From contig CM060196.1 of the NCBI GenBank assembly GCA_030549335.1, positions 9,749,501 through 9,813,500 on the forward strand: a stretch of 64,000 nt of DNA. Reading direction: 5' to 3'. The notes under the pieces are model-generated. The model did no database searches. It saw only the letters and a program-made list of their open reading frames with translations, and had not been told where the DNA came from. The position numbers and the translations under genes were made by a program. Origin of the DNA: Pontederia crassipes. Its lineage: Eukaryota; Streptophyta; Magnoliopsida; Commelinales; Pontederiaceae. Positions 941-25,126 of the stretch are shown here, in pieces; within the stretch, counting starts at the first letter, position 1, and each line of letters begins with the position of its first letter.

Positions 941-3900
941 CCTCGATTATTTGTTGGACGTGGAATGCAAGAAGGCCAAGTATCTCTTTTAAAGTAACTT
1001 TCCATGCTACATCAATACATTATTTGTTTGGTATTTTTTATGGCATTTTTTAATTTTTATCTTCTCAGGTATACCATATTTTGGATGATCCTGTTGTCTG
1101 GAAAATTTTTGTTCAGTTATCATTTTGAGGTAATTAATCACTTAATGCATTTTTTAGATGAACTTATGAAAGTGTGATCAGTATTGACTAATAATACTAA
1201 AGACACTGTCTTTCAAACTTTAGAATAGTGATATTTAGATGAACATGGCTCATGAAAGTTATATGTACTTTTTTGAATGGGTAACTTGTATACTGATTCA
1301 AATAGCGGAACCATTTCTTTTAATTTCCTATAAATTTTATTGCGAAGTATCTTCTATGCTATTTGCAATTGAAATTTCATTGGTGTGTTTTATATGATAT
1401 CAGCACTTGCACATGGATGGCTTGTTTTTTCTTAATCATTTTGAATTTTGTTTTAGTTAATTTTTACAGGAGCTTATCTTTGCTGATTGCAAAATTATAA
1501 ACCCTATAACTTTGGTTCTGGTGTATGATACATATATTCCGACACAAGAGCTGATGTGATGGTTGCATAGTGGTGTCATTGCCTGGTCATCATGAAATTA
1601 TGTTGTGATACGCTAGCTGCTTTGTTTTTTTTTTTTTTGTTTTTTGGAGACTGCACAATCAATAAAAAAATAGTTTCGATTACATGTAGGCTGATTGATC
1701 TATTATGGACGGAAACTGTATGTACTGAAATACACTCTTACCAACAGAATTTTGCTCCAAACTGATTTGGAACTTCCCCTTCAGATAAAAGAGGATATGG
1801 TAATTTGTGCACAGCGTAGAAGGATGTTACATGCTGATGAGTTCCAGACTTATAGAGGGAATAGGATTGCTACTAACCCAAGCATTCAATGGGTCTGTCC
1901 TTGAACAGGTTAGATCTCACAGAGGAGAAATTCTTTCTCAGGATCTCACCCAAAGCAATAGCCCAGCTGAATTTGACAAAAAGAAGGGTCTTCTGGAAAG
2001 GAACCCTGCTTTTGCAGCAGACCAGAGGAAAACAAAGAGAATGATCTCAATACCAGAAATTTAATAATCCGCTCTTCTTTCCCTCACAAAAAATAAAAAT
2101 CTCTCTTCTCTCTCTAGTAGAATAAAATAAAACTCTAGCCCTAACTAACAAGGGATAAAATGATTATTCCTCAATTGGATAGGACTCAAATAATAGAAAA
2201 TAACGAACTAATTAATTAACACAAATCAAATGGCTGTAGAGCACGATCCATCCTCCCAACTCAACAGCATAATAGATTTGATCTGTGGCTTCTTCTTTCA
2301 CACAACCTTCTTCTGTGCAGTCTTCAATTAGTTCAGCATACAAGGCGATAATTTCTTTTGCCCTTCTCCATGTTATTGGTCCTTAGCACATCACATGCCT
2401 TGTGAACTATGAGGAAATAAAGCTCTCTTAATAAAAAAGGACTGATGACCATGGGCTAAAAGTATAAATCTTTTGTTTTTGTTGTTTTTATTACATTGAA
2501 GCCAAGGTTGAACACTATAAATTTTCATATTACACAACTAGTTGAAATGTTTGATTCTAAACCATGAACTTTTCGGTCATTATCATTGTTCTTGGACATT
2601 TCTTTTAATAGATGCATTGATTATGAGTATAATAATTTAAACCCAACTGATGATACACAAATAACAAATCATTGCATTGTAACAGTTTGAGTAGAATGAA
2701 TATGTTGACACATATTGTACTCGGACAAATAACATAGGATAAGATAAAAATATAATTAACGATAACTCTTTGACATGATTATAATATTAAAGAGGCTCAA
2801 AAGTACATATAAAGTGGTCGTGTTTAGGTCGGTCGATCCGGTCCAAGTCGATTTTGAGCCAAATCGGGCTAAATCAATTCAGCCTGACCAAATATATAAA
2901 AGAGTGATTTGACACATGTGTGACATATCTCTGATTACTAATTGATATTTTAGCAGTTAATAATGATTAATTATGTCAAAATCCTTCTAATGCTTATGAT
3001 CTTATCATATTATTCTTCCACTTCTCTTTTTGAACAAAGTTGCTTGGGAAGGAGGAAACTTATTCTCTGATCCTTTAGAACAGAATACAACAGAAAGGGA
3101 TTGTAAATACTAGTAACAGATCTTAATGTAGGGCTTAGCTGAACTACTATATTCGTGGATGTATTTGTTTTATTTCAAAATTTTATTGACAGTTCATGAT
3201 GTGAAAATATTGGGTTTTGTCTGTCAGGACTCAGGACTTGTATCCAAAAGAAAAAGAAAGAACATAAATATTTGATTAAGTGAATGAACAAAAAATTTGA
3301 ACCTGAAACCGAATAAGAATGCCAACTTTTTTGCTGAAGCTTTACTGTTTTCAAAATATAATATAATGTTTCAATTTCCTCAAAGAAGCTTTTCTTGAAA
3401 GGCTGCATCTTTTCTTCTTTATGCTTCTTTGTAGAGTAGTTCAATTAATAACCAATTTATCCTTTGCAAATGTACAGATAAAGCCTCTTGTACAACCCAC
3501 AAAGCAGATTATGCAAGTTAGCATTAATCAGTATGATTGGCATGAGCTATTTCCTCGAGGTGTTTTTGATTTAACAAATATATACTGTATTCCTTACCAT
3601 TATTAGATTTAGTTTGCAAAACTAAGTTTCTTGTTATTGTTGCAGCTAAAAATAATGCTGGTGCAGTGCTTGCTATCTGGGTCCCTATAATTCTTGTGAG
3701 CGTACTTTTTTTAAGCTTACCCTTCTTGCAGTTCATTGTTAAGGTGCTTGATCTCAGCTCTGATGCAGGTATACTTTATGGACACACAGATATGGTATTC
3801 CATATTCTGTACAATCTTTGGAGGGGCTTATGGCATTATACATCATCTTGGTGAGGTGAGATTTCTCCTCTATTTAGATCTTCTTGACTAACTGGATGCC

Positions 3901-6900
3901 TATATTCTCAGATTATACTTGAGAGATAGTCTTTCACTTCCAGATACGTACCATGGGAATGGTGAGAAGTCGGTTTCACTTCTTACCAGCTAGGTTCAAT
4001 GTTTTTCTGGTTCCTCTGTCATCACATTCAGAAAAGAGGACTCACAAAAGCATTCTACCATGCAAAATATTTAAGGTGTGGTTCTAATGTCTATTGTTTG
4101 ATCATTCAAATTCTGATTTGCTTACTCGTGTACTCTTTATTCATAGCATTTTTTGTTTTACTTGACCAGAGAAAAACACTTGAAAGGAATGGTGACCTTG
4201 CTAAATTTGCTCTTGTCTGGAATCAAACCATCAGTTGTTTTCGCTCTGAGGATCTGATAAGCAATGAGTATTGTTTAGATTTCTTGCCTGATATTAAATC
4301 AATATATTCTATAATTTATCCACATCTAGAGTTTTTGTTAATAAAATGTGTTAGGATTTTTGCACGAGAGAAATTATGCATCGTAGAATAAACTGAGAAA
4401 TTTAGGACGACACATAATTGTTGAGAAACATGTTTTCTCTTATTATTCACCAAACACTAGAGCCTCCTTATTTATAATAAAGGTAGGCAATACAAGAAGG
4501 GAGAATATGCTAAAATATTACTCAGAAAATCAGGGATATTATCCCAAAATATCTGGGATATTATCCCAGGAAATCTGGGATACTACCCTGAATTATATTG
4601 CAAACATATGAAAAGATATGCAAATCTCAACACTCCCCCTCAAGCTGGAGCGTTAATATCATTTAGGCTCAGCTTGGAACATATAATATGGAGTTTTTTC
4701 TTAGGAAGTCTTTAGTAAAGATGTCAGCTTGTTGATCTTCAATGGTCAAGTGTGGAGTGAATATCTTCTTAGTTGTAATAGCATCACGAATCAAGTGACA
4801 GTCCACTTCTATGAAACACAGGATTGTTTACAATAAATATTGCAGCCTTGTTATCACATACATAGGTAATGGAGAAGCAACAGAAAGTCCAAAATCATGT
4901 AGGAGAGAGATCACCCATAAAAGTTCACATGTAGTATGAGCCATTGCTCTATATTCTGACTCAACGTTAGAGCGTGAAACCACATCTTGTTTCTTGCTGC
5001 GCTACGTTACGAAGTTTTCACCAACATAAGTACAATAGTCGGTGGTTGATCTTCTATCTTCACGAGCCTCGGCATAATCTGCATCAGAATAACCCTACAC
5101 TTTTAAATGTCCATGATTTTTTAAGTGAAGGCCTTTTCCTGGAGAGGCTTTTAGATATCGTAAAATCTGATATACACCTGCCCAATGTACTTCACGTGAT
5201 TCTTGCATAAATTGACTTAGGCGACCGATGGCATAAGAAATATCAGGACGAGTTACATTGAGATACAAAAGTTTACCAACCCTCTATATCTGGTGACATC
5301 TTGTAGAATAAGATTGCTCAAATCAGCTAGAGGTAGTTGTGGATCCATAGGAATGGTGGTTATTTTACAGCTCATCATACCAGCTTTCTTTAATAGATCC
5401 AAGACATATTTTCTTTGAGAGATAATGAGTCCATCATCAAATTGATTTACTTCAATGCTTAAGAAATATTTTATTAGACCAAGATCTTTGGTCACAAACT
5501 GTGATTGCAGAAACTTCTTTACTGTCAAAATATTGTCAGTGTCACTACCAGATATTAAAATATCATCTATATAAACTATGAGGATGATTGAGCCTTTAGA
5601 ATTATGTAAGAGAATGCTGAATTGTCTGAAGAGGATCGACTAAAGCCATATTTTTCAATAACTTTGCTGAATTTTTCAAATCATGCTTTTGGACTTTGTT
5701 TAAGATCATAGATTACTTTTTTTAACTTACGGGGTGGTACAAGCGATGGAGGAGACTGTGGTTGTGGCGGTAGATCATGTTGTGGGTCAGGAATTAGAAT
5801 TAGATGACTCTCATGATTATTCGTAGGGTTCAAAAAGTAAGGTTTATCTTCGAAAAAGGTAACATTTGCACTAACATAGGACTTTCGAGAAGTAGGATCA
5901 TAGCACCAGTAACCTTTTTGAGTTCGCGAGTACTCCAAAAAGATGCACTTGATTGCTCTAGGAGCTAACTTATTAGTTTGAAAGAGGTGAACAAAACATT
6001 GACATCCGAAAACACGAGGGACAGGAAACAAAGACTTTCTTGGGAATAGGAGATGGAATGGAATTTGTATATTGAGAACCGATGATGAAACTCGGTTAAG
6101 TAGATAACCAACGGTGAGAACGACATCTGGCCAATAGGTGGAGGGTACTTTCATAAGGAAAAGGAGGGTGCGAGCAACATCCAGCAAGTGGCGAAGTTTT
6201 CGTTCAGCAACGCCATTTTGCTGAGATGTTTTTATATAGGAAGTTTGATGAATTACACCAATAGATTTAAAAAATGATGAAAGATTAGAATTTTCAAACT
6301 CAAGTCCATTGTCGCTGCGAAAGATTTTAATTGTGGTAGATAATTGGGTTTTTATTTTTGTAAAAAATTCTCAAATAATACGAGGAGTTTCTGTCTTATT
6401 TTGCAACATATAAACCCAAGTGACCCTAGAAAAGTCATCTACTAAAACCAAGAAATATTTGAAATGACTATTGTTGGAAACTCGACAAGGACCTCACAAA
6501 TCAGCATGCACCAGTGAAAATGAACTCTTTTCTCGTTCGTCAAGACGAAGTGGAAAAAGAGTACGATGATGTTTTCCTATTTGACAAGCTTCACACTCAA
6601 GAACCTCAATACTTGAAATGTTGGGAAATTGTCGACGAAGAACAGTCAAACTGAGATGACCTAGGTGGTGATGGAATTGTAGGGAAATGCTGGTAGTGTA
6701 GGCTGTGGGATTTTGGGTAGATGGTTGGAGATAATAGAGTCCGTCACATTCAAATCCTCCATCAATTTGCCTCATCGTTTGGAGATCCTGTAGAACGAAG
6801 AAAGAGTCATAAAAAAATGCTCGAAAATATAAGGATTTTGTCAATTGACTGATCGAAAGAAGGCTAAGAGAAAACTTTGGAGCATGCATAACATTATCAA

Positions 6901-9900
6901 GAGAGAGGTCACAATTAACAAAAACTGTGCCAAGGTTAGTGACAGAGAGAGAGAACCATCAGCAACTTTAACATTAAAAGGATTCGATAGAGATTTGAGG
7001 AATGAGAAGAATTGGCATCACCTGTTATGTGTGAGGAGGCACCCGAATCTGCAATCCAGTCGGATTGAGAACTAGTAGAGAGAGCAAGAGTACCTGAACG
7101 ATGCATTACAGCAGCACCAGTTGACGGAGATGCAGGCTCAGTTATAGAAAGAGAACGAAGGCGATCATATTCTTCTTTTGATATTAGAATATCTGATTCA
7201 TTAGTAGTGGCAGCATGAACGATATCCAAACTTTTTCAGCAACGATCCGAGGGATGATTGGATCGATGATAGTGGTCACAAAAGAATTTACCACGTCCTC
7301 CGGAGTCATTCCCTCGTCCACGTCCATGGCCTTTGCTTTTGTCAGAGAAAATTCCTCTTCCTCTTCCACGTGTCCATTGTCCATATCAAGTCCATTGTCC
7401 ATTGTCCTATGCAGTCCAGTGTCGCTGCAAAAGATTTTAATTGAGACTCTGAATTATTCCCTCAAAATCCCTCAAATGTCATACAGATGACAATGAGACC
7501 CCTGTAGTGCAAGGGCACCTTTTACTTCGGAGCATCTTGGGGTTAGACGGGTTTGCAGTTGGGGTAGGATTCAAGGCATTATTAACAAATCTTTACCTTG
7601 AATTGAATTCTCCAATCAGATATCTAACACTCTCTGCAGTCGGCGGTCCCAACTTGGGACTATTACCAGTTATCAATATTTAGCAAGTTCAAATAATGTT
7701 GAAACTTGCTAGTAGGAATTAACTTGGTGAACATGTCACTGGATTATCTTCTGTGCCAACCTTCACCATGATCTTCTTCTCGGTACGGATGAAGTGATAC
7801 CTGACGTTGATTTGTTTGGTTCTTTCAAGAGGCACTTGATCTTTGGCTAAGCATATTGCACTTAAACTATCACAGTACACTATAGCCTGATCTTATTGTA
7901 GTCCAAGATCACCGACAAGGTCTTTTCCTTCTGTCAATGTCATGTACTCTGCCTCTGTGGTAGACAATGTAACTGATAGTTGGAGTGTGACTTTTCAACT
8001 GATAACAAAGTTGTCAAGAGTGAAAAGATAACTTAATCAACACCTATAGCATAATCTGAGTCTGAAAACCTATAATCAAACACTCTTTACCAGTTCTATA
8101 GATGAGGCCAATGTTAGACGTTTTTCTCAAATATCGAAAGATGCACTTTACTGCCTGCCAATGCTTCTTCTTTGTATTGCACACGAATCTACTTACCACA
8201 CTAGATATTGTGCATGCCATAGCATACATCAAGCTTCCGACTGCACTGACATATGGAACTCGAGACATGTACTCCTTTTCTTCATAAAAAATAAGTGCAG
8301 TTGCGGAAAGGTGCACATTTAAAGCTGATTCTTCCGATTGCTTTTCAGGTTCTGGTTGCTTAGCCTGATGAGATTTTTTTACCCCATTTTGAATTAGAGT
8401 TAATTCAAACTCCACTTGTTTGTCGGCACTCATCGCTGATTCAACAATATTTGATTTCTACTGGAGCATGGACGTCTCATCAAAGATATGTTTTTGCTGT
8501 GAATAAACTTGTGTTATGAAGGAAACTAGATTCGAACTAGATTCTGAAGCCTTTTACACCTGTACCATATCCCACAAAGATTTCTTATTTGTCCCTTGAT
8601 TCCTACTTTCATTCGCAGACATGGTAATATGCTGGACATAATTAGCAGGAAAATCCTGATCATATCTTAATAGGATCGATCATGGTTGCAGAACTCCAAT
8701 TTACTAGGTAATATCCTGTGCTACCAACTCAGAATGACTTGTTCACACTAGAATTAGAGAGCATGCATTGTGCTCTCTGCAAAAGAGTTCTGTTCATGCG
8801 TTCTGTTACACCATTATACTGCGGTGTATCTCTAACGGCGCAATGTCTAGCAATACCTTCATCCTTACAGAACTAATCAAATTCAGACGAACAAAACTCC
8901 AAACTATTATCGGTGTGAAAGCGTTTCACCTTTCGCAATGTTTGATTCTCTAGCAACGCCTTCAACTATTTGAATGCTTCAAATGCCTTGCTCTTGTGTT
9001 TCATCATGAATACTCATGTCATCATTGAGTAATCATCTATCACATATAAAAAGTATGTAGAATCTCCTAGAGATGAAACACGAGAGGGGCCCCAACAGTC
9101 AGCGTGGATGTGATCGAGTGTTGCTTTCGTCTTCTGCACTGCTTTGCTGAATTGAAGTCATTTTTGCTTGCCGAAGACACTATGCTTGCAGAATCCAATT
9201 TTGGATATCTTCTGACCACCCAGAATATTGCGCTTGTTAAGGATATCCATATCTTTTTTACTCATATGTCCAAGTCACATGTGCCACAACGTGGATGCTT
9301 CTTATTTTAATTGGGATGAATTACTTACTGCAACCACACCAGAAATTATTGTGCCTTGTAGTATATACAAGGACTTCTCCTTGACTCCTCTCATGACTTC
9401 AACATCATCCTTGTTGACCGTGAGAACACCTTCTGCAGCATCAATCCGACATCCTTTGGAGTCTAGAACTCCTAATGATATTAGATTTTTCTTGAATTGC
9501 AGAACATGGCGGACCTTTGTTAATGTCCTCACCCGATTGTCATGAGTTTTGATCTAAATTGAGCCGATTCTACATATTTTACAGGCTGCATAATTGCCCA
9601 TGATGACATTTTCTCCATCAATATTTTGATAAGTTCAGAACCACTCTTTGTTTTGAGTCATATAATAAGAGCATCCTGAATCCATAACACAACTCTCCTC
9701 CAAACATCTCTGAACAGACACCATGAGAGCCAAATCGTCATTGTTAGATTCTCTACTCCGGTGTACTATTGCAACCGTGTCCTTTTTCTTCTTCTTGGGG
9801 CCAATTCTTCTTACAGTGACTAGGTTCTTTGTAGTAGTTGCAGATGTCCTTCGGATTGACGTTCTTCTTCGGCTTACCCTTCTTAGAGTTCAGATGATGC

Positions 9901-12900
9901 CCCTTCTTTGCAGTTGTCACTAACCCTTCAACCTGAGTCTCTACGGATGCCCTGTGTCGAAGTTCATGAGTATGTATACTCGATCTTACTTCTTTCAGAG
10001 TTATTGTGTCTCTTTTGATGATCACAGACTGAACGAAATTTTCGTATGACAGAGGAATAGACACCAATAAAAGTAGGATAGCATCTTCATCCTCAATCTT
10101 CACATCTATATTTCGTAATTCCATGAATATAATATTCATCTGACAAGATGATCTTTCACAGGGGTACCTTCTTACATGCGGAGGGCGACAGATATTGCTT
10201 CAATAACAATTTGTTGGTCAGAGACATGATCATGTAGAAACTCTCAAGTTTCGACCACAGACCAGCCGCCGTTTCTTCATCGGCGACTTCAATAATTATC
10301 TCGTCCGCCAGGCATAACAGGATCATAGAGTGCACATTTTCTTCCTATGCCACTAAATTGGCGAGATCGATCTCTTTTTCTTTGCCTTTCGAGTCTTCCA
10401 CCTTTGATTTATTCTTCGACACGTTCGCGAGTGGTGCCCAGACTCGTTGTTTTAGAGACTGAAACTATTACGTCATGTGAATTTCTCGATCTTCACATTG
10501 TGCGATGCCATCTCTACGTCTGCTAGAGGATCGATGACGCAACCTCGCTCTGATATCAGTTTGTTAGAATTTTTGTACGAGAGAAATTATGTACCGTAGA
10601 ACAAACCGAGAAATTTAAGGCAACGCAAAATTTTATTAGATGAAAACAGAAGAAGATTACCATTTAGATTACTTTCTATTTGTACCCCTAGGAATTTTAT
10701 ATAGGCATTCCCTTTATAGATGATAGGAATTTCATACCAATTGGGACTTTGAATTAATCTCTCAAAACTAGGACACCTATCTCGTGGTAAGAAAATAAAT
10801 CAATTAGAATCACAGATAGAATACCTTGTAATGCGAGGGTGCTTTTTACTTCGGAGTGTCTTGGGGTCTAGATGGGTTTCCAGTTGGAGTAGGATTCAAT
10901 CCATTATTAACAATATGGATTCTTCTTTTCAAAAGACAAAAATATGGATTCTTACAGTGATTCCATTTTTATGTAGGGAAAGAGATTTACTAGTTATGCC
11001 AGACAAGAAGAGCTTTGAGCATATCAGCTGGCCTTTGTTTCTTCTAGCCAATGAGGTGTTTCGCCTTTTGATATAATGAAACAATGCTCTGTTTTTGTTT
11101 TCTGACTTGTCTGTTATTATATTTGCAGTTTTCAACTGTGGTAAATATGGTTAAAGACTTTGACAGTGGTAAATGTGGTAAATTTGAGCAGCTTAAAAGA
11201 AAAATAGAAAAAAATAATTACATGAGCAGTGCTGTTAAAGAGTTTTATTGCTTGTTGAAGAATATCTTGAAGTCCCTTGTAATTGGAGAGTTGGAGAAAA
11301 GGTTAGATATCTCCTGTCTAAATATTCTACAATTTGCTACTTCATTATTATCTTTTCTTCTAACCAGTTGAATTTCCTATTCTATTACTGTTGATGATCA
11401 TAGCAGAATTGTTGTTTCTCTTTCAGGGTTTTAGATGCCATTTACAATGAAATTGAACAAGGTATCAGAAACTCAAGCTTTCTTGTCGATTTTCAGATGA
11501 ATGAGCTGCCAGTTCTACACAATAAGTTGGTCCAACTGACTGAGATTTTGGTAGTTATTTCTTTGCAGCTATATGAGTATCTCATCTTGATCTGGGGTAC
11601 ATAGACATATCTTCATCTTTAAATCATTAATATGTGCCATCTTCCGGTACATTTTTGTGCAGAATTATTCCAATCAACCAACTTATCGGGACAGAGTAGT
11701 AATTTTATTACAAGATATTGTTGAGATTTTAACCAAAGATATGATGACCAATGGTTACAGGTGATGAATCTAATACTCATTGCTCAAGCAAAATTTGTAT
11801 GATTGCTGTAAGCATTTCTTTACTTTGACAGAATATTGGATGTCATAAATTCATCAAGTACTAAGGATCAGCATCGGGAAGTATTTTCTAGTTATCTCGA
11901 ACCACAATTATTTAAATCAAATGGCTCAGGTGTTGCTATATGTTTCCCACTTCCAAACAATAGTCTACTGAAGGATCAGGTTAGTGCTTTTTTTTTTATA
12001 AGTTAATATTTCTGCTTCTTATTCTTGATACATTTGTACCAGATAAAGCGTCTTTATTTGTTGCTTACTATCAAGGACAAAGCTATGACTATCCCCACTA
12101 ACTTGGAAGCTCAAAGACGAATCCAATTCTTTGCTACTTCTCTTTTCATGACCATGCCTAATGCACCGAAAGTTCATAACATGTTGTCTTTCAGGTAAAG
12201 GAATCTATGTTACAATTGTTTGTCCTCAGACTTTGAGTGATGAATAGGCAAAGCTAGATACAATTTAATTTTTCTTTGCTTGCTTCCAGTTTAAATTATA
12301 AAATTATTGATGTGATAGAATTCTTTTAGCTTATGGCCACTTATATCACATGCATAAAAGGGAGACCTCATCTAGCATTAGAGTTTATTTCTTTTTTTCC
12401 CTTCCTAGGTTGGATCTCAACATTTTTGAAAGCTATGAAATTTGCACGAAGATCAAATTCTTTCACTAACACAAACTAAAGGAAATTGTATGGCAACTAA
12501 ATCTGTGTCCCTTAACTCAGGATGGGTAGAGTAAGGGAAAGAAGATGGAGTTCCAGAACATATCACTGTCCATTATTTATTTTCCTCTACTACTCTTAGC
12601 TCTCTTTCACACATAACCCACATGCACATATTGCCCATGGTCATACAGTCACAGGGGCACATAGATGCACATACATCCCCAGCATGTGTTCTTGGGTGCA
12701 TCACGATGCACACTACACACACACACACAATAGCCGAGATACTAATGGGTCCTTCCATCGCATCAGGTGACTATAGGTGAAGGTGAAAATGTGCAGATTT
12801 AGCAATTGCAAGGAATAATAAAGAGGCACACAGTAGCAAATAAGGTGTTGACTCCATTATTATGGATCAAGTTATTAGTTATTTTAACAAGTCTTGAAGT

Positions 12901-15900
12901 TTGAACCTATCTGTTATCCAATAAAAACCCAAAATTCCTAAATAATAAACCAAAATCCCCTACATGATATCTTACAAAAGCTTTTTGACAAGCACTTGCA
13001 GCAATCGGTCGTGTGAACCAAAAGCCTATTAACAAATATGAACAAACTTCCACCAGTTCCCAAAAATATATGGAGGGAGGGAGGGAAGGGGAGGAGAGAG
13101 AGTTTACATGCTTCAAAATTCCTAATGCAGAAACTTAATCTGATGGCATCTCCTTGTCTAAGAAAGTTTTTCATAGACAGTGTGATGACTCCTTATTACA
13201 TGGAAGAAGTTAACTTTGGAGAGAAGGCACTAAACTCAAGTCAAGATGGGGCATCCATCCTCTATTACATGCAACAAATATATCCTGGTATTTGTTGAAA
13301 GAATTTGTACAATGTGTTGTGCTAAAAACTTTGTTTATATCACTAATTGCTTCCATTCAACTGATTTCGATGAATGGGAGAACTTTCTTGAACGCCTTGG
13401 CCCTAAGGCATCCCAAGAAGAGACCCGATATTGGGCTTCTTTTCGTGGACAAACACTGAGTCGTACAGGTGAGAATAGACCAGCTGTAGGCCTTTGGACA
13501 TGAATGCTTCTTTAGACTATTTGTTTAAGTTATCTAAAGATTTTCTAATTTTCTCTTTGGATTTTGATAAATTAGTTCGGGGGATGATGTACTATAAGAA
13601 GGCATTGAAGTTTCAGGCATGTCTGGACAGAGCCAGCGATCAAGGTTACAAATGTCTTAGTTTTGATGATACCAATGGGCCACCTTTCTTGCTTCTTTAT
13701 AGTATTTGCCAATTGCCACTTTTAACTACAAAGTTTTGAATTACTAAGCTGAAGGCTTTCTTTGCATGATTAATCATCAATCAGAAATTTCTAAAGGGCA
13801 TATTGGTGTTGAGCGAGAACAAAATAGGAGAACCAACCAGCACCCGTGGCAAGCACAGATAGATGCATTGGTTGATCTAAAATTCACATGTGTGGTTTCT
13901 TGTCAAAATTTTGGTGCACAAAAATCTTCAGGTGATCCACGTGCTGAAGACATAATCGATCTAATGATAAGGTACTTTTCATACAAGGCGCTGTTTTTTT
14001 ATTATCATTTTTTCCTCACTGATCAACATTTGGCATTCAAGATATCCATCATTGCGTGTTGCGTATATTGAAGAGAAAGAAGAGATCAAGGCTGATAAAC
14101 CTCACAAAGTTTACTCTTCAGTCTTGATTAAAGCTGATAATAAGTTTGATCAGGTAAGTATCATTTTACCATACTAAGCTAAATTTCAGTGTGTAACGCT
14201 TAAATGTGTGCATGACTTTCTTGCAAAAGATTCGATATAATTTTTTGAGATTGAGGACATTCCCTGAGATTCTCTAGAAAGGAGACAGTGATATATTGTT
14301 TTCATCAACGCATTGTATTCTGAATTACCCAATTCCATGGAGGAGATCATCAGATTGAGCATTCTAGTTTTTGGTATAGTAAGAGGAAGGTCAGAATCTG
14401 ATATTGGAATTCTTAAGAAACTAGTCATATCCTTCAACTGTGTTCTGAGTTATCTCTAAGATTAAAATATACATTAAAATAATGAATTTAAAAATAATAA
14501 TAGAGGGCAGTGCATTAGACATATAATACATGTCAATTGTCAAACATTATAGATTTAATAAATACTACATAGAAATATCTAAAAATGTACTTTTTCTGTT
14601 CAGGGCTAGGATTTGAGTAGTCGGATGTCTCCAAACATAGCTGTAAAGGTTTACCCTCTCCTGTCTTATAGGATTCAAACTTAGGGATTGTATGTTTGAT
14701 GTTTATTATGTCCTTGGTCTTATGTTTTAGAAAAGTATCGTAGTGATCGGCTATGCCTTTGTGCTTATGTTTTAGAAAAGTATTATGTCCTTTGTGTTTT
14801 GTTAATTTTGCATTGACTCAAATAAAATTATAATACTTAATGGTGGTTATGTAAAAATAAAGAATGAGATGAAATAATCGAATCATCATTTTTGTTTGCT
14901 TAATTGACATTACTTATAGGATTAGGACATATTTGAGAATGATACACTTTTCACTACATAAAGGAATTATCATCCTTTCTCCTCATTCCCATGTTTAACC
15001 AAACACCCAATGAAACAAGATACAAGGATAATAATTTCTTCTCCAAATACAATATTTTTTATTAACTAATGGAGTTATCAATTCTGAGGATAATAGTTCC
15101 TCTTCCATAGATAATACCTATCCAAACAAATTGTATATAGCGAGAGATATCATGAGGCTTTTTTTGGCATCTCACAAGTAGTCGACTTAACGTAGGATAA
15201 AAGATCATATCATATTATATCAGATCCCATTAATTCACTTGAGAATTCGTCATACATTGAAATAGATAATAATTCCAGAAATCTTTCTGCAGATTAAAGA
15301 GGATAGTTGTTGTGCATTTGTAACATAGACCTCACTTGTGAGACTGGCTGGTTCATGAGATGACAGTAAATTTCAGAAAGATAACCTCTTATCTCTCATG
15401 CTATTTTTTTTTCAAGAAAAGAAAGTGTTGAGAAAAATGTTCTCTTATTTTTTGACCAAACACTAGTGCCACCTATTTATAATCAAGGTAGGCAATACAA
15501 GAAGGGAGAATATTACTCCAGAAAATCAGAGATATTATCCCAAAATATCTGAGATACTATCCCAAGAAATTTGGGATACTAATCCTAACTAATATTACAA
15601 AGATATGCGAAGATATGGAAAGATATGAAGAGATATGCAAATCATATCTCAACACTCCCCCTTAAGCTGGAGCGTAAATATCATTTAGACTCAGCTTGAA
15701 ACATATATCCAGGAGCTTCTTCTTAGGAAGTGCTTTAGTAAAGATGTCAGCTAGTTGATCTTCAGTGGCCAAGTGTGGAGTGGATATCTTCTTAGTTGTA
15801 ATAGCATCACGAATGAAGTGACAGTCCACTTCTATGTGTTTAGTCCTCTCATGAAACACAAGATTGTTTGTAATAAATATTGCAGCCTTGTTATCACAAT

Positions 15901-18900
15901 ACATAGGTACTGGAGAAGTAACAGAAATTCCAAAATCACGTAGAAGAGTGATGATCCATAAGAGTTCACATGTAGTATGAGTCATTACCCTATATTCTGA
16001 CTCAGCGCTAGAGCGTGAGACCACATCTTGTTTCTTGCTGCGCCATGTTACAAGATTTCCACCAACATAAGTACAATAACCAGTGGTAAATCTTCTATCT
16101 TCATGAGCCCCGACATAATCTGCATTAGAATAACCCCACACTTTTAAATGTCCATGATTTTTTAAGTGAAGATCTTTCCCTGGAGAGGCTTTTAGATATC
16201 GTAAAACCTGACATACACCTGCCCAATGTACTTCATGTGGTTCTTGCATAAATTGGCTTAGGCGACCAACGACATAAGAAATATCAGGACAAGTTACAGT
16301 GAGATACAGAAGTTTACCAACCATAGCTCTATATCTGGTGACATCTTCTAGAATAGGACTGCTCAAATCAGTTAGAGGTAGTTGTGGATCCATAGGAATG
16401 GTGGCTATTTTACAGCCTATCATACCAGCTACCTTTAATAGGTCCAAGACATACTTTCTTTGAGAGAGAATGAATCCATCATCAAACTGATTTACTTCAA
16501 TGCCTAAGAAGTATTTTATTAGACCAAGATCTTTGGTCACAAACTGAGATTGCAAAAACTTCTTTGCTGCCAAAATACCGTCAGTGTCACTATCAGATAT
16601 TAAAATGTCATCTACATAGACTATGAGAATGACTGAACCTTTAGAAGTATGTAAAGAGAATGCTGAATGGTCTGAAGAGGATCGACTAAAGTCATATTCT
16701 TCAATAGCTCTGTTGAATTTTTCAAACCATGCTCTTGGACTTTGTTTGAGTCCATAAATTGCTTTCTTCAACTTGCAAACCTTTGAACATTCCCCCTGAG
16801 TAATATACCCAGGCGGCTGTTCCATGTAAACCTCTTCAGTAAGATCATCATATAAGAAAGCATTTTTAACATCAAGTTGGTGAACTTGCCACCCAGAGTT
16901 GACAGCAACAGAAAGTAAGATTCGAACAGAATTAAAACGAGCAACTGGAGAGAAAGTCTCAAAATAATCTACTCCATACATTTGGGTGTAACATTTGGCT
17001 ACTAAACGAGCCTTATAACGATCAACCGTTCCATCAGGGAGATACTTTAGGGTGAACACCCATCGACAACCAGCTACTCTTGCATCAGTTGGGAGATCTA
17101 CAAGCTCCTAAGTCTCTCTAGATTGCAGAGCGGACATCTCCTCATCCATAGCATTTTTCCAGTACAAATGGTGGAATGCCTCAGAATGATTGCGGGGAAT
17201 AAAAAGACTATCAAGAGAAGCTGAAAAAACTTTGACAGCAAGAGACAAATGATCAAAAGTCATAAAATTAGATAGAGGATATTTCACACAAGACCTAGTG
17301 CCCTTGCGATGTGCAATAAGAACATCTAGGTCATGAGTTACCCGAGGAGGATCTCCTTCCAACAAGTCAGGATTGTTTGGAGGATTACGTGATGGAATCG
17401 TGGAGAGTGGTTCATCATCAAGGTCCGGTGGAGGTTGTGGAGGTTGAGTATGTCGGCGGCTATAAACTCTCAAGGGTCGTGCAGGCCATGGAGGAGGAGA
17501 CTGTGGCTGTTGTGACGGTAGATCTTGTGATGGGTCAGGAATTGGAATTAGATGACTCTCATGGTTATCCGCAGGGTCCGAAAAAAAAGGTTTGTCTTCA
17601 AAAAAGATAACATCAGCACTAATATAGGACCTGCGAGAAGTAGGATCATAACACCTGTAACCTTTTTGAGTTCGCGAGTACCCTAAAAAGATGCACTTGA
17701 TTGCTCGAGGAGCTAACTTATCAGTGTGAAAGAGGTGAACAAAACATTAACATCCGAAAACACGAGGAGGGACAAGAAACAAAGACTTTCCTGGGAAAAG
17801 GAGATGGAATGAAATTTGTCCATTGAGAACCGACGATGAAACTCGATTAATGAGATAACCCGCGGTGAGAACGACATCTGGCCAATAGGTGGAGGGTACT
17901 TTCATATGGAAGAGGAGGGTGCGAGCAACATCCAGCAAGTGGCGAAGTTTTCGTTCAGCAACGCCATTTTGCTGAGATGTTTTTACACAAGAAGTTTGAC
18001 GAATTACACCAACAGATTTAAAAAAACGATGAAAGATCAGAATTTGCAAACTCAAGTCCATTGTCGCTGCGAAAGACTTTAATAGAGGTAGAGAACTGGG
18101 TTCTTATTTCTATAAAAAATTCTCGAATAATTCGAGGAGTTTCTGCCTTATTTTGCAACATATAAACCCAAGTGACTCTAGAAAAAATCATCTACTAAAA
18201 CCAAGAAATATTTGAAATGCCTATTGTTGGAAACTCGACAAGGACCCCACAAATCAGCATGCACTAGTGAAAATGGACTTTCTTCTCGTTTGTCAAGACG
18301 AGGTGGAAAAATAGTACGATGATGTTTTTCGAGTTGACAAGCCTCACACTCAAGAACTTCAGTACTTTAAATGTTAGGAAATTGTCGACGAAGAACAATC
18401 AAACTAGGATGACCTAGGCGGCGATGGAGTTGTAGGGAAATGCTGGTAGTGTAGGCTGTGGGATTTTTGGTAGATGGCTGGAGATAATAGAGTCCATCAC
18501 GTTCAAATCCTCCACCAATCTGTCTCATCGTTTGGAGATCCTGCAGATAAAAAGAGTCATAAAAAAGTGCTCGACAATTTAAGGACTTTGTTAGCTGGCT
18601 GATCGAAAGAAGGCTTAGAGCAAACTTTGGAGTATACATAACATTATCAAGGGAGAGGTCACAATTAACAGAAACTGTGCCAAGGCCAGTGACCGGAGAG
18701 AGAGAACCATCAGCAACTTTGACATTAAGTGGATTCGATAGAGATTTGAGGGATGAGAAGAAAGAGGCATCACCTGTTATGTGTGAGGAGGCACCCGAAT
18801 CGGCAATCCAGTCAGATTGAGAACTAGTAGAGAGAGTAAGAGTACCTGAATGATGCATTACAGCAGCCCCAGTTGACGAAGATGTAGATTCAGTAATAGA

Positions 18901-21900
18901 CAGAGAACGAAGGCGATCATATTCTTCTTTTGATATTAGAATATCCGACTCATTAGTAGTGGCAGCATGAACCTTTGGGTGATCAGCAGGATATCCAAAC
19001 TTTTCCTAGCAATGGTCAGAGGGATGACTGGATCGATGACAGTGGTTACAAAAGAATTTACCACGTCCTCCAAAGTCGTTTCTACGTCCACGTCCACGGC
19101 CTTTGCCTTTGTCAGGGAAAAATCTTCTTCCTCTTCCACGTGTAGCAAGTGCAGATGCATCCGTATAAGGTGAGAAATCATCGATACGGGAGAGTCGAGC
19201 ATAGACTTCTTCAGGGGTTGGAATAGTTTCCTGTGTCATCAACTGATCCTTGACCGATTTATATTCAGGACCCAGACCAAAGAGAAACTGGACGGATCTA
19301 ATTTGATCACGTTGTTCATTCCAGAGGTTAGTTAATGTCCTAAAATATCTTGATATCTGTAGAGAGAGGCTGATAGATATCTTGCTCATTCCAGAGGTTA
19401 GTTAATGCCCTAAAATAATTTGCTAACGGCTGATCATTTTTCTTGCATGATTGGATTTCTTCAAGAACCTTGTAAAGGCAAGATATATTGCTTTTATGAG
19501 AGTGAAGTTTTTGGAGTATCTCCCACATAGTCTTGGCTAACCTATAAATCATGACCTGTTTGGCAACAGATTCGGTCATGCTATTGAGCATGGCAGAGGC
19601 GACCCAATTATTGTCAGCATCCCAATCTTCTGTACGTTCTTCAGATTTGGTGAGGATATGCTTTTTCCTGTGGGACCCTACGTAGCGCTCAAATGCCGTG
19701 AACCAGAGGAGATAATTGGTACCATCAAGTTTGATATTGATACCGAGTGGAGTGCTGAGGATGGATTTAACACCAGAATTGCTAGATAAAGCTTTCTAAT
19801 CGGCCATGGTTGAGCACGACGGGTTCCATGGAGAAAAAAAACAAGCGCCGATCTTGAGAACTATGGATCTAGGTCGGACATCCATTTAGATTGAGGAGGG
19901 AAGGGAGAGGAATAAGGATCAGATCGTTACTGCTCTGATACCATGTTGAGAAAAATGTTTTCTCTTATTTTTTGACCAAACACTAGTGCCACCTATTTAT
20001 AATCAAGGTAGGCAATACAAGAAGGGAGAATATTACTCCAGAAAATCAGGGATATTATCCCAAAATATCTAAGATACTATCCCAAGAAATCTGGGATACT
20101 AATCCTAACTAATATTACAAAGATATGCGAAGATATGGAAAGATATGAAGAGATATGCAAATCATATCTCAACAGAAAGGTTACTGGGTAGTCATCCAAA
20201 TTTATATTATGATTAGAAAGTCAATGATGTACAAGTGTGTCCTGCGAGGAGAACAACAGAAAAGTTAGAAGTTGTGTTTGTTGACTACATTACAACCTGA
20301 ACCCCCATTCTCGAATAAAAAAGGGAGATATGATGTGCAATGTTTGCAACATAGCATCTCTCACCTCAAAATATAACTTGATTATGTAGGAGCCAGATGA
20401 TCCAAGTGACCGTGAAAAAGGTGATTGGTGCTCGCCTGGTTTGGCCACCCCAACCACCAAGAGCTTTGAGGGACTACCAAAAGGCCTGATTGTTGGGATG
20501 GTGGCATCAGGGATGTGATTTGGTCTCAAAGCCTCTTGATCCACAGAGCACCCGAAGGACAAGCGGATGACGTCCTCATCCACCTTGATGCATAGAGTGA
20601 GATGATATTGCTTGGTTGATAATCAACAAAGGGATTGAGGATTGTGTAGACCCAAAGTGGGTTCACACGTGGACTACCATTGATCTATATGTCAATGGTA
20701 GTCTTAAATTCATTATAAATTCACTTTAAAAGGTGTTGATCAAGGACTACCATTAATTTATAAATCGATGGTAGATCTACATATCTTGGGCCCACACATT
20801 CCTTAAATCCATCAGCAAATAAAAACTCAGAAATATAACCCTTTATCTCTAGTAATATGAGAGTAGGATTCTAGACTCTTAATTATGAGCCAATTTGTAT
20901 CGGTTGAGGGAAATGATATACAGTAGAACATACAAAGGTATTTAAATCATCAAAATTATTTTTTGCTTTCAGTCAATTGATGGTGTTGAGTTGGTTCTGT
21001 TTCATTTTTTGTTGCCTTGTTTATTAGAACTACTAGAAAATATGGAAAATTTCACATTATTTTAGTCTCACATATCTATTTCTTAAAACAGCTGAATTAA
21101 AGCTTCTTTTAGGTGGGCGGGCTGTTAGAATTGAGATTGAATCCAAACGTTGATGTTTATGATCACCAGATAATATCATTTGGTTGATGATATAAAGAAA
21201 ACGATGTCTCATAAAAGAATGTTGATGATTCAGGAAGTGGCTAATTTCTCGAATGTATTTTAAGAGGAAAGTTATAAGTTATGAGGAGTGCTTTGCAAGA
21301 TTCTATCAGCTTCATTTCTTTACCCTCAAAATAGCTAATCAAGAGCTCCCTTTCCGGGATCACATTGGAAACTTGCATCCATGCATAAATGCATATGATT
21401 TTCCAGATGATATTGTTTGGTTGATAATAATAAGCAAATATGACTCATATTACTTATGCAAGAACAGTGAATCATGAAATGTTTAATTTCTTGAATATAG
21501 CTGAGGAGGAAAATAAAAGTTTATCAGCGTGGTTGTTTCATTTTGATTTCTTCCCATTTCTGATCTTAGTCATGTTCATTCTTCAACATCATAGGAGATA
21601 TACCGTATCAAGCTTCCAGGTCCACCAATTATTGGTGAAGGGAAGCCTGAGAATCAAAACCATGCAATCATTTTCACTCGTGGTGAGGCACTCCAGACCA
21701 TTGATATGAACCAAGTGAGTGCTCTCGATTGATATTTTTGTTTCCTTTAGCGGTGCAATTATTTTAACATTCTGTTTATTCAGGACAATTATCTTGAAGA
21801 AGCTTATAAGATGAGAAATGTTCTTCAAGAGTTCCTTGAGCATCATGGAGGACATCCTCCAACCATACTCGGATTGAGGGAACACATATTCACGGGAAGG

Positions 21901-24900
21901 TTGATAATGGTCTGAAGTTTAATGTTTACAGATTTCGAACAATAGTGGAATGTTATGGTTCATGTGTACCATTTCTTAAACTAAACATATGTAATGTTAA
22001 AAAATGCATAACTGTTTTTTTCTTAATGATCACAGTGTCTCATCTCTTGCTGGATTTATGTCCTATCAAGAGACTAGCTTTGTCACAATTGGACAGAGGT
22101 TTCTTGCAAATCCTCTCAGGTAAGGGCTTGAGCACAACTTTAATGGCTTAAGAAATAATAATTTCAAAGTACTTTTTTTCCACATCCAGGGTAAGATTTC
22201 ATTATGGCCATCCAGATTTATTTGACAGAGTGTTTCATCTGACAAGAGGTGGAGTTAGCAAAGCATCGAAAACTATCAATTTGAGTGAAGATGTCTTTGC
22301 TGGTAGACAATTCTTTTAGTCTACATTTGATTATGTATTTTTGTCAAAGTGATTCAATCTGGACCACTTTCAGGATATAACTCCACATTACGCAGAGGAT
22401 ACATTACTTATAAAGAATATATACAAATCGGAAAAGGACGTGATGTTGGTCTGAATCAGATATCAAAGTTCGAGGCCAAAGTGGCCAATGGAAACAGCGA
22501 ACAATCTCTCAGTCGTGATATATACCGCCTAGGACAGCGATTTGACTTTTTCAGGATGCTCTCTTGTTATTTCACAACAGTTGGTTTTTACTTCAATAGC
22601 CTAGTATGTTTTCTCCATGAACTTGCTGAGTCTTCTGCTTGTTTGTGCCTATATGTATGGTGGTGTATTTCTTCTATTAGGCTCAGATATTATAAATATC
22701 AACTGATTCCATGCAAAATTTGTTTCAGTATGTTACTTTTGCAGGCGACCCATCTCTGTGATCAAGCTTAATAATTAGAGATTTGTCCTTCTACAAAAAA
22801 AATAAATTAGAGACTTGTATACTTGATGCTGTTAACAACCAACATATTGATGTTTCACTAAGCCACGAGTGTTAAAAGCAGTAATATAGAAGCACACTAG
22901 CGTGCAACCACAGACTATGGTCTCACAGTGCAATTACATACCCTGGGCCTTTGGATGTAGAGCAACATTTTGATCTGTCCAAAACACAGGTAATCTACAC
23001 TATTAGATTAGAATGATGCTAATCCAAAGGTCAAGAGTATGTGATTGCATGGTGTGACCACAGTTTGTGGTTGCACGCCAATTTAACTCAACTTACATTT
23101 ATTTTTTTTGAAGTGAGTAAACTTATGCTTTTTGAAATCTCATCTTTTACATACCATGTTGATGTAGAGCAAGATTAATATTATGAATTCTTTGGACATG
23201 AGTTATTAGTCTCCAGTTATGGGCATGAGCCAATAGTTTAATTAGGAGCACATTAGGGGATTTTCTTTATATTATATTTCCTTTTATTTGGATTTTATTA
23301 TTTGGCAAGTAGTGTATAGAACCAGTATAAATACTCTTGTATGGTTACTTTGAAAGACAGTTTTGAATGACAACATTATGTTCTGATTATTTTTGAAGTA
23401 GCTAACTTAATTTAGGGTTTAGGAGTAGATTAACTTAGTTGGTCTCCATCATATGGAGTTCTTCATATGGCGTTCTTTAGCTGTTATGCGAGCCTTTATT
23501 TTTGGACATATATTGTTGGTTTGCAAGATTCATTACAATTTGAAAGTTGCAGTTTAGCTCTTCCTTTGTATGTTAAAGATGGTTCACTTGCATGTTCAAC
23601 TGTCTAGAATGCTTATGCTAATTAATCTAACATATGTGATCACCCAACCTATTGTCATTTGCAGATATCAATACTTGGGGTTTATGTCTTCCTCTATGGG
23701 CAACTCTACTTGGTTCTTAGTGGGTTGGAGAAAGCACTTCTTACAAAGGCAAAAGTAAAAAATGTTAAATCATTAGAAACAGCACTTGCATCACAGTCTT
23801 TCCTCCAACTGGGACTTCTTACTGGGTTACCAATGGTGATGGAGCTTTGTTTGGAGAAGGGACTCCGGGTGGCCCTGAGTGACTTTATTCTTATGCAGTT
23901 GCAGCTGGCTTCCGTATTTTTCACATTCTCTCTTGGAACAAAGGCACACTATTTTGGAAGGACAATCCTTCATGGTGGTGCTAAATATAGACCCACAGGG
24001 CGGAAGTTTGTCGTCTTTCATGCAAGTTTTACAGAAAATTATCAGTTGTATTCACGAAGCCATTTTGTCAAAGGGTTTGAATTGCTTTTCCTGTTGGTTA
24101 TCTATAACCTGTTTAGAAAATCGTATGAGAGCACAGTTGCTTATCTAATGGTCACATACTCTACATGGTTTATGACTTTAACTTGGCTATTTACTCCTTT
24201 CCTTTTTAATCCTTCTGGATTTGTTTGGCAAAAGATTGTTGAAGACTGGAGCGAATGGAATAAATGGATGAAAAGTCAGGGTATAGGCATACAGACAGAT
24301 AAGAGCTGGGAATCCTGGTGGAATAATGAGTATAATCATCTCAGACATTCAGCACTAACTTCAAAGATCTTTGAAATAGTTCTCTCTCTCCGATTTTTCA
24401 TTTATCAATATGGACTTGTTTATCACCTCGACATATCACACGACAACAAAAATATTTTGGTATATGTCCTTTCTTGGATCGTCATAATTGTCATCTTTTT
24501 GTTTGTTAAGGTAAGCAATCACATAATCACGCTCAAATTCAGCTGGTTCTAGGCGTCAGTAATTACTTGTGCTATCTCCATCTCGTGGATTTATTTTCCC
24601 TTGTTGGTAACTGAAACTTCATCTCTATTTTTCAGGTGGTTAACGAAGGACGTCGAAAGCTGAGTACAGAACATCATCTTCTGTTTAGAGTTTTCAAGAT
24701 GCTGTTATTCTTGGCTGTCATAGCGTGCATAATTACTCTATCAAGTTTATGCAAACTGTCTCTGATGGATCTCATAATTTGCTGCCTTGCATTTGTTCCA
24801 ACTGGTTGGGGAATATTGTCGGTGAGTATGCATACGGCATTTATAACTGTCTTACTGCAGGTGCTAAAGCTAATTACCTCTCTTTATTCATTCAGATAGC

Positions 24901-25126
24901 ACTAGTTTTTAGGTCCAAGATGGAAAAGTATGATTTATGGGAGCCCGTCCAAGTTATTGCCTACGCATACGAATATGGAATGGGTTCGTTACTCTTCGCC
25001 CCAGTAGCAGCTTTAGCATGGATGCCATTCATCTCAGCAATTCAAACTCGTGTTCTCTTCAATCAGGCCTTTAGCAGGCAGTTGCAAATTCAACCTATTC
25101 TTCCCGGAAAAAGTAAAAGTCGATAA
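941..25126 (+). CDS. Callose synthase (1,3-beta-glucan synthase, GT48), 3' two thirds, 26 exons
   Basis: Transfers glucose from UDP-glucose to make callose; a multipass plasma-membrane protein. Exons, joined by frame continuity: 941-993, 1069-1129, 3478-3559, 3646-3695, 3769-3855, 3944-4075, 4170-4267, 10977-11055, 11129-11301, 11427-11550, 11663-11760, 11832-11979, 12043-12194, 13181-13287, about 13370-13468, 13576-13644, 13785-13971, 14042-14153, 21595-21714, 21784-21899, 22036-22119, 22190-22302, 22374-22603, 23665-24510, 24636-24821, 24896-25126. Family hallmarks in order: [88 protein letters not shown], then the catalytic block (21595-21899) with [30 protein letters not shown] and [12 protein letters not shown], and a multi-helix C terminus. 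About 1,280 codons are visible of a usual 1,900, so the N terminus is upstream. No in-frame stop was seen. The acceptor before exon 15 is non-canonical (see findings). The many-exon type excludes the intron-poor callose synthase group; the exact paralogue is not assigned. Confidence 0.93.
1130..3477 (+). other. Callose synthase intron, 2.35 kb
   Basis: The flanking exons join in frame (FSYHFE to IKPLVQ), so nothing coding is missing. It holds a poly-T tract near 1621. From about 1785 to 2400 there is a less AT-rich stretch with a weak open frame and a CT-rich tract near 2100, which looks like a decayed transposon but which I could not classify. A small GC-richer patch lies near 2815-2890. Confidence 0.5.
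4419..7443 (-). mobile_element. Truncated Ty1-copia element (family A, copy 1) nested in the TNT1-like LTR
   Basis: It begins with a 214-bp LTR (4419-4632) that is clearly homologous to the LTRs of the element at 15426-20174, followed by a polypurine tract on the minus strand (CTCCCCCT on +). The element then reads antisense through RNase H, RT, integrase and protease into gag. Its distal end (5' LTR, most of gag) is missing and replaced by a short scrambled junction at about 7371-7443. It interrupts the older element's LTR at 4418/7444. Confidence 0.8.
4633..7402 (-). pseudogene. Decayed pol with partial gag of copia family A, copy 1
   Basis: Minus-strand pieces: gag tail and GRG-rich region (7184-7402), protease with [14 protein letters not shown] (6936-7229), GAG-pre-integrase with [16 protein letters not shown] and a zinc-binding CEACQ (6494-6889), integrase C-terminal part (5681-6187), RT (5253-5528, [13 protein letters not shown]), and RNase H traces down to about 4650. 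Compared with copy 3, about 700 bp is missing around 5730: the integrase tail runs directly into the RT motif YDLKQSPKA. The N-terminal RT half, including the region before the YVDD box, is therefore lost. Non-functional. Confidence 0.75.
7690..10540 (-). pseudogene. Degenerate gag-pol of the TNT1-like copia element
   Basis: Fragments on the minus strand in retrotransposon order: gag (9753-10139, basic KKGKPKK tract next to a decayed CCHC-type knuckle), GAG-pre-integrase region (9302-9532, with [16 protein letters not shown]), then the RT C terminus (8044-8433, with [15 protein letters not shown] and [13 protein letters not shown]) running into RNase H towards 7690. The pieces lie in different frames with stops, so no working polyprotein remains. 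The Gly-Ser-Leu-Met-Tyr-Ala and Lys-Arg-Asn-Leu-Ile-type motifs are typical of the TNT1 branch of copia. Confidence 0.75.
10562..10912 (-). repeat. 5' LTR of the TNT1-like copia element
   Basis: It is 351 bp, bounded by TG and CA, and matches 4349-4418 plus 7444-7587 over most of its length. Shared blocks include the GAGAAATTATG region near the start and the TTTTACTTCGGAG region near the end. Confidence 0.75.
12195..13180 (+). other. Callose synthase intron, about 1 kb
   Basis: The flanking exons join in frame to give MLSFSVMTPYY. It contains a short (AC)n run at about 12713-12730 and a G/A-rich patch near 13071-13102. No exon or transposon was recognised. Confidence 0.7.
14154..15420 (+). 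other. Callose synthase intron, part upstream of the copia insertion
   Basis: AT-rich DNA with no coding or repeat signal that I can name. The exon upstream ends KADNKFDQ (14153), and the next exon starts [11 protein letters not shown] at 21595, so the whole interval is intronic. Confidence 0.7.
15426..15654 (-). repeat. 3' LTR of copia family A, copy 2
   Basis: 229 bp, TGTTGAG to TCTCAACA. It contains several copies of a GATAT-type motif (GAGATACTATCCC and AAGATATG variants) near its inner end. Confidence 0.9.
15662..17110 (-). pseudogene. Copia RT and RNase H, near-intact frame
   Basis: A 465-codon open frame starts at an internal Met at 17059. [20 protein letters not shown], the [14 protein letters not shown] block, then the active-site box VYVDDILIS. 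RNase [15 protein letters not shown] and the terminal ADIFTKALP. In a live element this would copy genomic RNA into DNA in the virus-like particle. The upstream frame is the same but is cut by a TAG at 17108-17110, so the polyprotein is broken. The stop of this frame lies inside the polypurine tract next to the LTR. Confidence 0.88.
17111..18858 (-). pseudogene. Copia protease and integrase region with stops and frameshifts
   Basis: Protease active site [14 protein letters not shown] lies near the start (minus strand, about 18800). A GAG-pre-integrase segment with [10 protein letters not shown] follows, then a zinc-finger remnant near 18350, the integrase core including [18 protein letters not shown] (about 17930), and a Pro-rich C-terminal part (17108-17473). 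Comparison with copy 1 shows nonsense changes at 18367 (Ser codon to TAA) and 17747 (Gln codon to TAA), plus extra A residues in A-runs near 18020 and 18185 that shift frame. Not functional. Confidence 0.85.
18936..19807 (-). pseudogene. Copia gag with a nucleocapsid zinc knuckle, disrupted
   Basis: The minus-strand start is at 19807; codon 4 is a TAG (19796-19798). Gag motifs: [13 protein letters not shown] and LYKVLEEIQ, then a Gly/Arg-rich tract, then the CCHC knuckle [14 protein letters not shown] at about 19010-19055 (Cys-x2-Cys-x4-His-x4-Cys). A partial 70-bp duplication at about 19315-19420 repeats the LTNLWNEQ coding segment in another frame. Confidence 0.85.
19932..19943 (-). promoter_or_regulatory. 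Primer-binding site for initiator Met-tRNA
   Basis: Minus strand TGGTATCAGAGC, the standard plant copia primer-binding site, directly next to the LTR end at 19944. It sets the element's direction as minus. Confidence 0.9.
19944..20174 (-). repeat. 5' LTR of copia family A, copy 2
   Basis: 231 bp, same termini as the partner LTR. The 2-nt length difference comes from TT at about 19961. Substitutions relative to the partner: A/G in CAG[A/G]GATAT, G/A in ATCT[G/A]AGAT and T/C in AAAT[T/C]TGGG. Confidence 0.9.
20180..21594 (+). other. Callose synthase intron, part downstream of the copia insertion
   Basis: No exon recognised. It contains two related small inverted repeats (20672-20703 and 20748-20774), listed separately. 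The exon acceptor is the AG at 21593-21594. Confidence 0.65.
20672..20774. repeat. Pair of related short inverted repeats
   Basis: The first has perfect 12-bp arms, GACTACCATTGA (20672-20683) and TCAATGGTAGTC (20692-20703). The second has CTACCATTAAT paired with ATCGATGGTAG (20748-20774). The shared ACTACCATT core suggests both come from one small foldback sequence. Confidence 0.7.
22604..23664 (+). other. Callose synthase intron, 1.06 kb
   Basis: It separates exons ending FYFNSL and starting [15 protein letters not shown], which are adjacent in the family. It holds a MITE (22899-23079); the rest is AT-rich and unremarkable. Confidence 0.75.
22899..23079. mobile_element. Foldback MITE with about 58-bp terminal inverted repeats
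   Basis: The left end reads GCGTGCAACCACAGACTATG and onward; the reverse complement of the right end reads GCGTGCAACCACAAACTGTG and onward. Similarity continues for about 58 bp to CTTTGGAT on both sides. The element is about 180 bp with a short unique centre. It has no coding capacity. The superfamily is not clear because no unambiguous target-site duplication is visible. Confidence 0.8.

Follow-up and report, generated by a model that had tools for sequence, protein, structure and literature searches.

The window, a 64,000-nucleotide stretch of the Pontederia crassipes genome (C14:9749501-9813500), carries exons 16-41 of a CalS8/GSL4-type callose synthase gene at 941..25123 on the plus strand, the strand of all features of this gene given below. 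Exons 1-15 are located on the same contig upstream of the window, and the modelled first exon, at which we infer the start codon, starts ~7 kb upstream. The gene model was derived from spliced alignments with Musa and Ensete proteins and a single-exon paralog, together with an exon-by-exon comparison with a second copy of the gene on contig C13, and is further supported by its open translation and Pfam matches. The joined reading of the window copy is 1908 aa long and contains PF02364 (725.8 bits) and PF14288 (139.1 bits), both above the cut-off, as well as a match to PF04652. The C13 copy shares 74% identity over the full length with the Zingiber and Curcuma proteins annotated as putative callose synthase 8, and many of the best full-length matches (120 listed of the 2131 found) bear this name or that of glucan synthase-like 4. 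In our tree, the two copies cluster with seven Zingiberales entries with a support of 0.999, a limited test of class in which a single callose synthase of another class (L029) served as the contrast. Identities among the 120 listed matches reached at most 76%, with no protein or transcript of the same species for this gene, and the 48 matches in the protein collection that span the junction region discussed below included no near-identical entry.

Two features of the coding sequence lie away from that junction. In the window copy, the exon at 11129-11301 carries 12 additional bases that keep the frame and add four residues, an insertion that neither the C13 copy nor any of the 120 listed homologs shares. 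At 22036-22119, the W of the motif SLAWFM, present in 78 of the 120 listed homologs, is replaced by G in both copies; the same G occurs in 20 of 21 chosen monocots and in 41 of the 120 overall, and seems to reflect a change within the monocot CalS8 lineage.

The window also contains repetitive elements and further genes. An LTR element at 15426-20174, which we take to be copia-like from its protein fragments, lies within one of the introns of the window copy; its LTRs (15426-15654 and 19944-20174) are 97.8% identical, and the corresponding position on C13 is an empty site. The intron between the exons ending at 4267 and starting at 10977 holds a mass of retroelement remains (4300-10900) that is partly alignable to C13, with rearrangement. 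Following the callose synthase gene, a cluster of what are presumably glutamate-receptor-like genes extends from 29241 to 59129, in which some tracts read through stops.

The 3' end of intron 29

Exon 29 (13181..13287) ends with TAT CCT G in phase 1 and is followed by intron 29 (13288..13369), an 82-nt intron with a GT donor at 13288-13289 and CG at 13368-13369, the position at which the acceptor AG is expected. The first-pass annotation had pointed to an exon with a normal GT donor and no correctly placed AG behind it, and the letters confirm this. The family sequence YPDEW requires the codons (G)AT GAA TGG after TAT CCT G, and the window sequence bears out the junction that had been placed on this basis at 13369/13370, with CTGATTTCG on its 5' side and ATGAATGG on its 3' side. 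The sole AG within the intron (13300-13301) is too near the donor. The CTAAT at 13343..13347, which we take to be a branch-site motif and hence a candidate branch site, is unchanged in the C13 copy.

The predicted products differ greatly with the site that is used. Read-through of the intron gives IYPGIC followed by a stop, and the first AG 3' of the candidate branch site (13379-13380) gives IYPELS and a stop after three codons, a product of 1114 aa, while the TG at 13362-13363 (TA in the C13 copy) would extend the exon in frame by 6 nt and add two residues (PDFDEW); all three outcomes had been anticipated and are reproduced by translation. Full-length products would arise from this TG (1910 aa) or from the CG at 13368-13369 (1908 aa, the exact protein). 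There are also in-frame escapes beyond those listed earlier: two cryptic AGs ending at 13417 and 13420 (13416..13420) yield 1892 and 1891 aa, without a run of 16 residues and, for the second, the E that follows; and skipping of exon 30 (13370..13468), which comprises 99 nt or 33 codons, joins exon 29 in frame to exon 31 (13576..13644) as IYPVRGMMYY, in a protein of 1875 aa. We also combined GT donors that would end an exon at 13190-13339 with AGs up to 13468 for introns of at least 60 nt. None of these canonical junctions restores the family sequence, and the seven combinations that give proteins longer than 1500 aa are each short by 16 to 44 residues.

Scored with a matrix built from the acceptors of the CalS8 gene itself, all of the alternatives are low and hardly separable: the frame-shifting AG that ends at 13422 has -2.21, the CG -2.64, the TG -2.68, and the AG at 13379-13380, which is not favoured, -4.12. 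The acceptor of intron 29 in the C13 copy scores 3.59, compared with a median of 8.48, which argues that this acceptor was weak from the outset. A spliced retrocopy that could serve as a record of splicing was not present in the genome, where the six matches are single exons of the C14 and C13 copies.

The position of the junction in the protein is constrained among the 120 listed homologs (of 2131 found). In 117 of the 118 with residues at the junction, a single residue stands between the P and the E/W pair or what corresponds to it; two have no residues there and one has a longer insertion. Yeast FKS1 aligns at the junction with HPVEW and further on with WASLRSQTLYRT, both inside the glycosyltransferase domain by the limits of ~713-1281 given for it in PMC12715860. 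A two-residue insertion through splicing at the TG, or the loss of exon 30, would hit this conserved catalytic-domain sequence.

An AG kept in the sister copy and paralogs is lost from an otherwise open gene

A search of the genome (1.13 Gb in 43 contigs) with the segment 13200-13478 had two hits, one being the window and the other C13:44295909-44296187, which matches at 96% over all 279 bases. The C13 and C14 gene copies are collinear, insertions aside, and the adjoining glutamate-receptor-like genes are present on C13 as well, so the two regions would appear to be homoeologous or haplotypic. Intron 29 of the C13 copy is likewise 82 nt long, begins with GT, and ends with AG, reading CTAATTTAG at its 3' end (TTTAG). 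The window intron differs from it by three substitutions only, at 13319, 13363 (A in C13, G in the window), and 13368, where a change from A to C relative to C13 abolishes the AG. An earlier suggestion that one A had dropped from TTTCAG to leave TTTCG is rejected, because the sister intron is equally long and reads TTTAG; the defect is a substitution, and a one-base assembly deletion need not be invoked. Among the three readings offered at first, a non-canonical intron, a loss-of-function allele, and a one-base sequence error, the loss of function through a lost splice site is thus the best supported, and the error in its deletion form is unnecessary.

The AG is also found outside this pair of copies. 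Among the other callose synthase loci in the genome, four align straight through the site with no intron, and an intron is present there in five (L031-L035). The first alignments of these loci required AG, and we then read the letters directly: all five show AG followed by ATGAATGG at the junction, which argues that the AG is ancestral. A non-AG acceptor kept in relatives was therefore not observed, as the C13 copy and the five intron-bearing loci all end in AG. At the 5' end of this intron, L034 (5711, +) and L035 (5033, reverse strand) carry a GC donor (gcactt) along with the AG acceptor.

In the C13 and C14 models taken together, all 80 donors are GT and one of the 80 acceptors is non-AG, that of intron 29 in the window; these models were built with AG required, and the window copy was then realigned with the splice boundaries open to every dinucleotide, under a penalty of 8 or 14. 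With free boundaries and the C13 protein as the reference, intron 29 is the only one of the 40 introns of the window copy that departs from GT-AG. With a Zingiber protein (P0122), there are two, the second being a CC-AG intron at -5102, upstream of the window, for which a GT 6 bases further on fits the models used. Intron 29 is hence the only defect on which both references agree, and none of the four free-boundary runs contained a frameshift. Frameshifts that had suggested decay elsewhere in the C14 copy came from AG-required alignments to a distant single-exon paralog; a frameshift at intron 29 with the Ensete protein also came from an AG-required model and was gone with free boundaries and two references.

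The remainder of the gene shows the pattern of a protein under constraint. There are 74 coding substitutions between the copies, 31 of them nonsynonymous, corresponding to a dS of 0.036 and a dN of 0.0070, with dN/dS at 0.218 before the junction and 0.160 after it. In 2000 runs of a neutral simulation, 51.7 nonsynonymous changes (sd 3.9) were expected against the 31 observed, along with 3.05 stops, and 4% of the runs were free of stops; neither copy contains one. Using 21 monocot orthologs chosen from the 120 listed homologs, 11 derived residues were assigned to C14 and 11 to C13, leaving 9 of the 31 unassigned, so that derived residues are not clearly in excess in the window copy, and the tree branches measure 0.0067 for C13 and 0.0101 for C14. 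As for the signs of a pseudogene, the lost acceptor AG counts as a probable disabling lesion, but a broken frame elsewhere or relaxed selection was not detected in the 1908 codons and 41 exons of the window copy, which lack stops and frameshifts, at an overall dN/dS of 0.195. The ratio of ~0.20 and the lack of a clear excess of derived residues argue that the lesion is recent, and any decay of the window copy that has begun would be recent too; the absence of decay elsewhere fits a very recent lesion, but also a gene that is still in use.

The stretch around the junction (13181-13468) holds 10 copy differences in 288 bases, compared with 4.4 expected; of the seven that fall in exons, six alter the residue (one-sided Fisher 0.019, uncorrected for the choice of region). 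These changes fall on both lineages, so the cluster is not simply decay of the C14 copy.

Loss of the acceptor and the competing explanations

The ordinary explanation, that a substitution recently removed the acceptor from one member of a duplicate CalS8 pair, is most likely on the sequence comparisons above. We consider it probable that the window copy is a young loss-of-function duplicate, newly damaged by the recent A to C change at 13368. This change would destroy the 3' splice site of intron 29, and C14 transcripts would mostly retain the intron or take a cryptic AG, the first candidate being that at 13379-13380. By either course, translation would end early, with 11 exons left 3' of the stop. 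Skipping of exon 30 or splicing at the in-frame AGs might occur in a minority of transcripts, and the C13 copy would presumably supply the function.

It is unlikely that a non-canonical acceptor, the TG at 13362-13363 or the CG at 13368-13369, still splices intron 29 and leaves the gene functional. Both sites would yield full-length proteins, the purifying selection between the copies and the lack of a clear derived-residue excess in C14 would be expected of a working gene, and minor non-canonical splice sites do occur, at a mean of 0.09% across 121 plant genomes according to PMC6310983. However, in the account of an Arabidopsis mutant whose acceptor was changed from AG to AC (PMC11420051), the intron was kept in almost half of the transcripts and cryptic AGs were used in the other half, and the mutated site seemingly was not used. 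As for the TG, the human survey described in PMC2374985 reports TG acceptors only as alternatives beside a nearby working AG, never as the sole acceptor, and describes a shift of splicing to neighbouring AGs in human mutants whose AG had become TG; PDFDEW would, in addition, disrupt the spacing that nearly all of the listed homologs keep.

An error of sequencing or assembly at the level of the base call, with A as the true base at 13368, is likewise improbable. It would account for the only clear defect in the gene, which lies where the copies differ more densely than expected, and the three differences in the 82 intron bases are above the mean of 2.06% for aligned introns. Against this, the change is a substitution rather than the indel that had been proposed, and five of the six nearby residue differences can be assigned, three to C14 and two to C13, which argues against a simple run of poor sequence in one of the copies.

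We regard as decidedly doubtful a partial rescue, in which the skipping of exon 30 or the use of an AG ending at 13417 or 13420 gives a shortened protein, of altered or no activity, that escapes nonsense-mediated decay. The length of exon 30 and the phase of both cryptic AGs would permit it, but the AG at 13379-13380, first after the candidate branch site, shifts the frame, and the segment that would be removed aligns to the conserved FKS1 sequence around HPVEWECF and WASLRSQTLYRT, within the glycosyltransferase domain as delimited in PMC12715860, so the shortened protein would probably have lost its activity. Least probable of all is efficient splicing at the TG at 13362-13363 as the sole acceptor of a plant U2 intron, with the A/G difference at 13363 and the A to C change at 13368 as a linked pair, in which case a motif conserved between yeast and plants would be two residues longer in the enzyme.

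Under the favoured explanation, the recent loss of the acceptor by substitution, the window copy would show in clean form how a duplicated plant gene can begin to fail, through one splice-site base with the rest intact. Because the C14 and C13 copies differ so little, the pair offers a natural test of how the plant spliceosome responds to one missing AG. The dosage of CalS8 copies could matter, given the role in stress-induced callose deposition at plasmodesmata that is described for Arabidopsis GSL4/CalS8 (PMC9893415). For annotation, a gene predictor that requires GT-AG would break this CalS8 model, as the AG-only alignments did.

Comparison with known systems

Compared with the monocot CalS8/GSL4 (GT48) orthologs, the window copy possesses the same domains, and both copies group with Zingiberales, but the window copy differs from them in the missing AG of intron 29 and in the four-residue insertion in the exon at 11129-11301. 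The lesion resembles that of Arabidopsis egy1-4 (AG to AC), in which the acceptor AG of a short intron was also destroyed by a base change; the egy1-4 change, as PMC11420051 describes it, was induced and is accompanied by exon substitutions and a 5-bp deletion, whereas that in the window sits in one of two duplicate copies. Intron 29 also resembles the GNAS-type TG 3' splice sites of U2 introns, in having an in-frame TG 6 nt 5' of the ancestral acceptor. In contrast to intron 29, which has lost its AG, the human GNAS-type cases presented in PMC2374985 have a working AG nearby.
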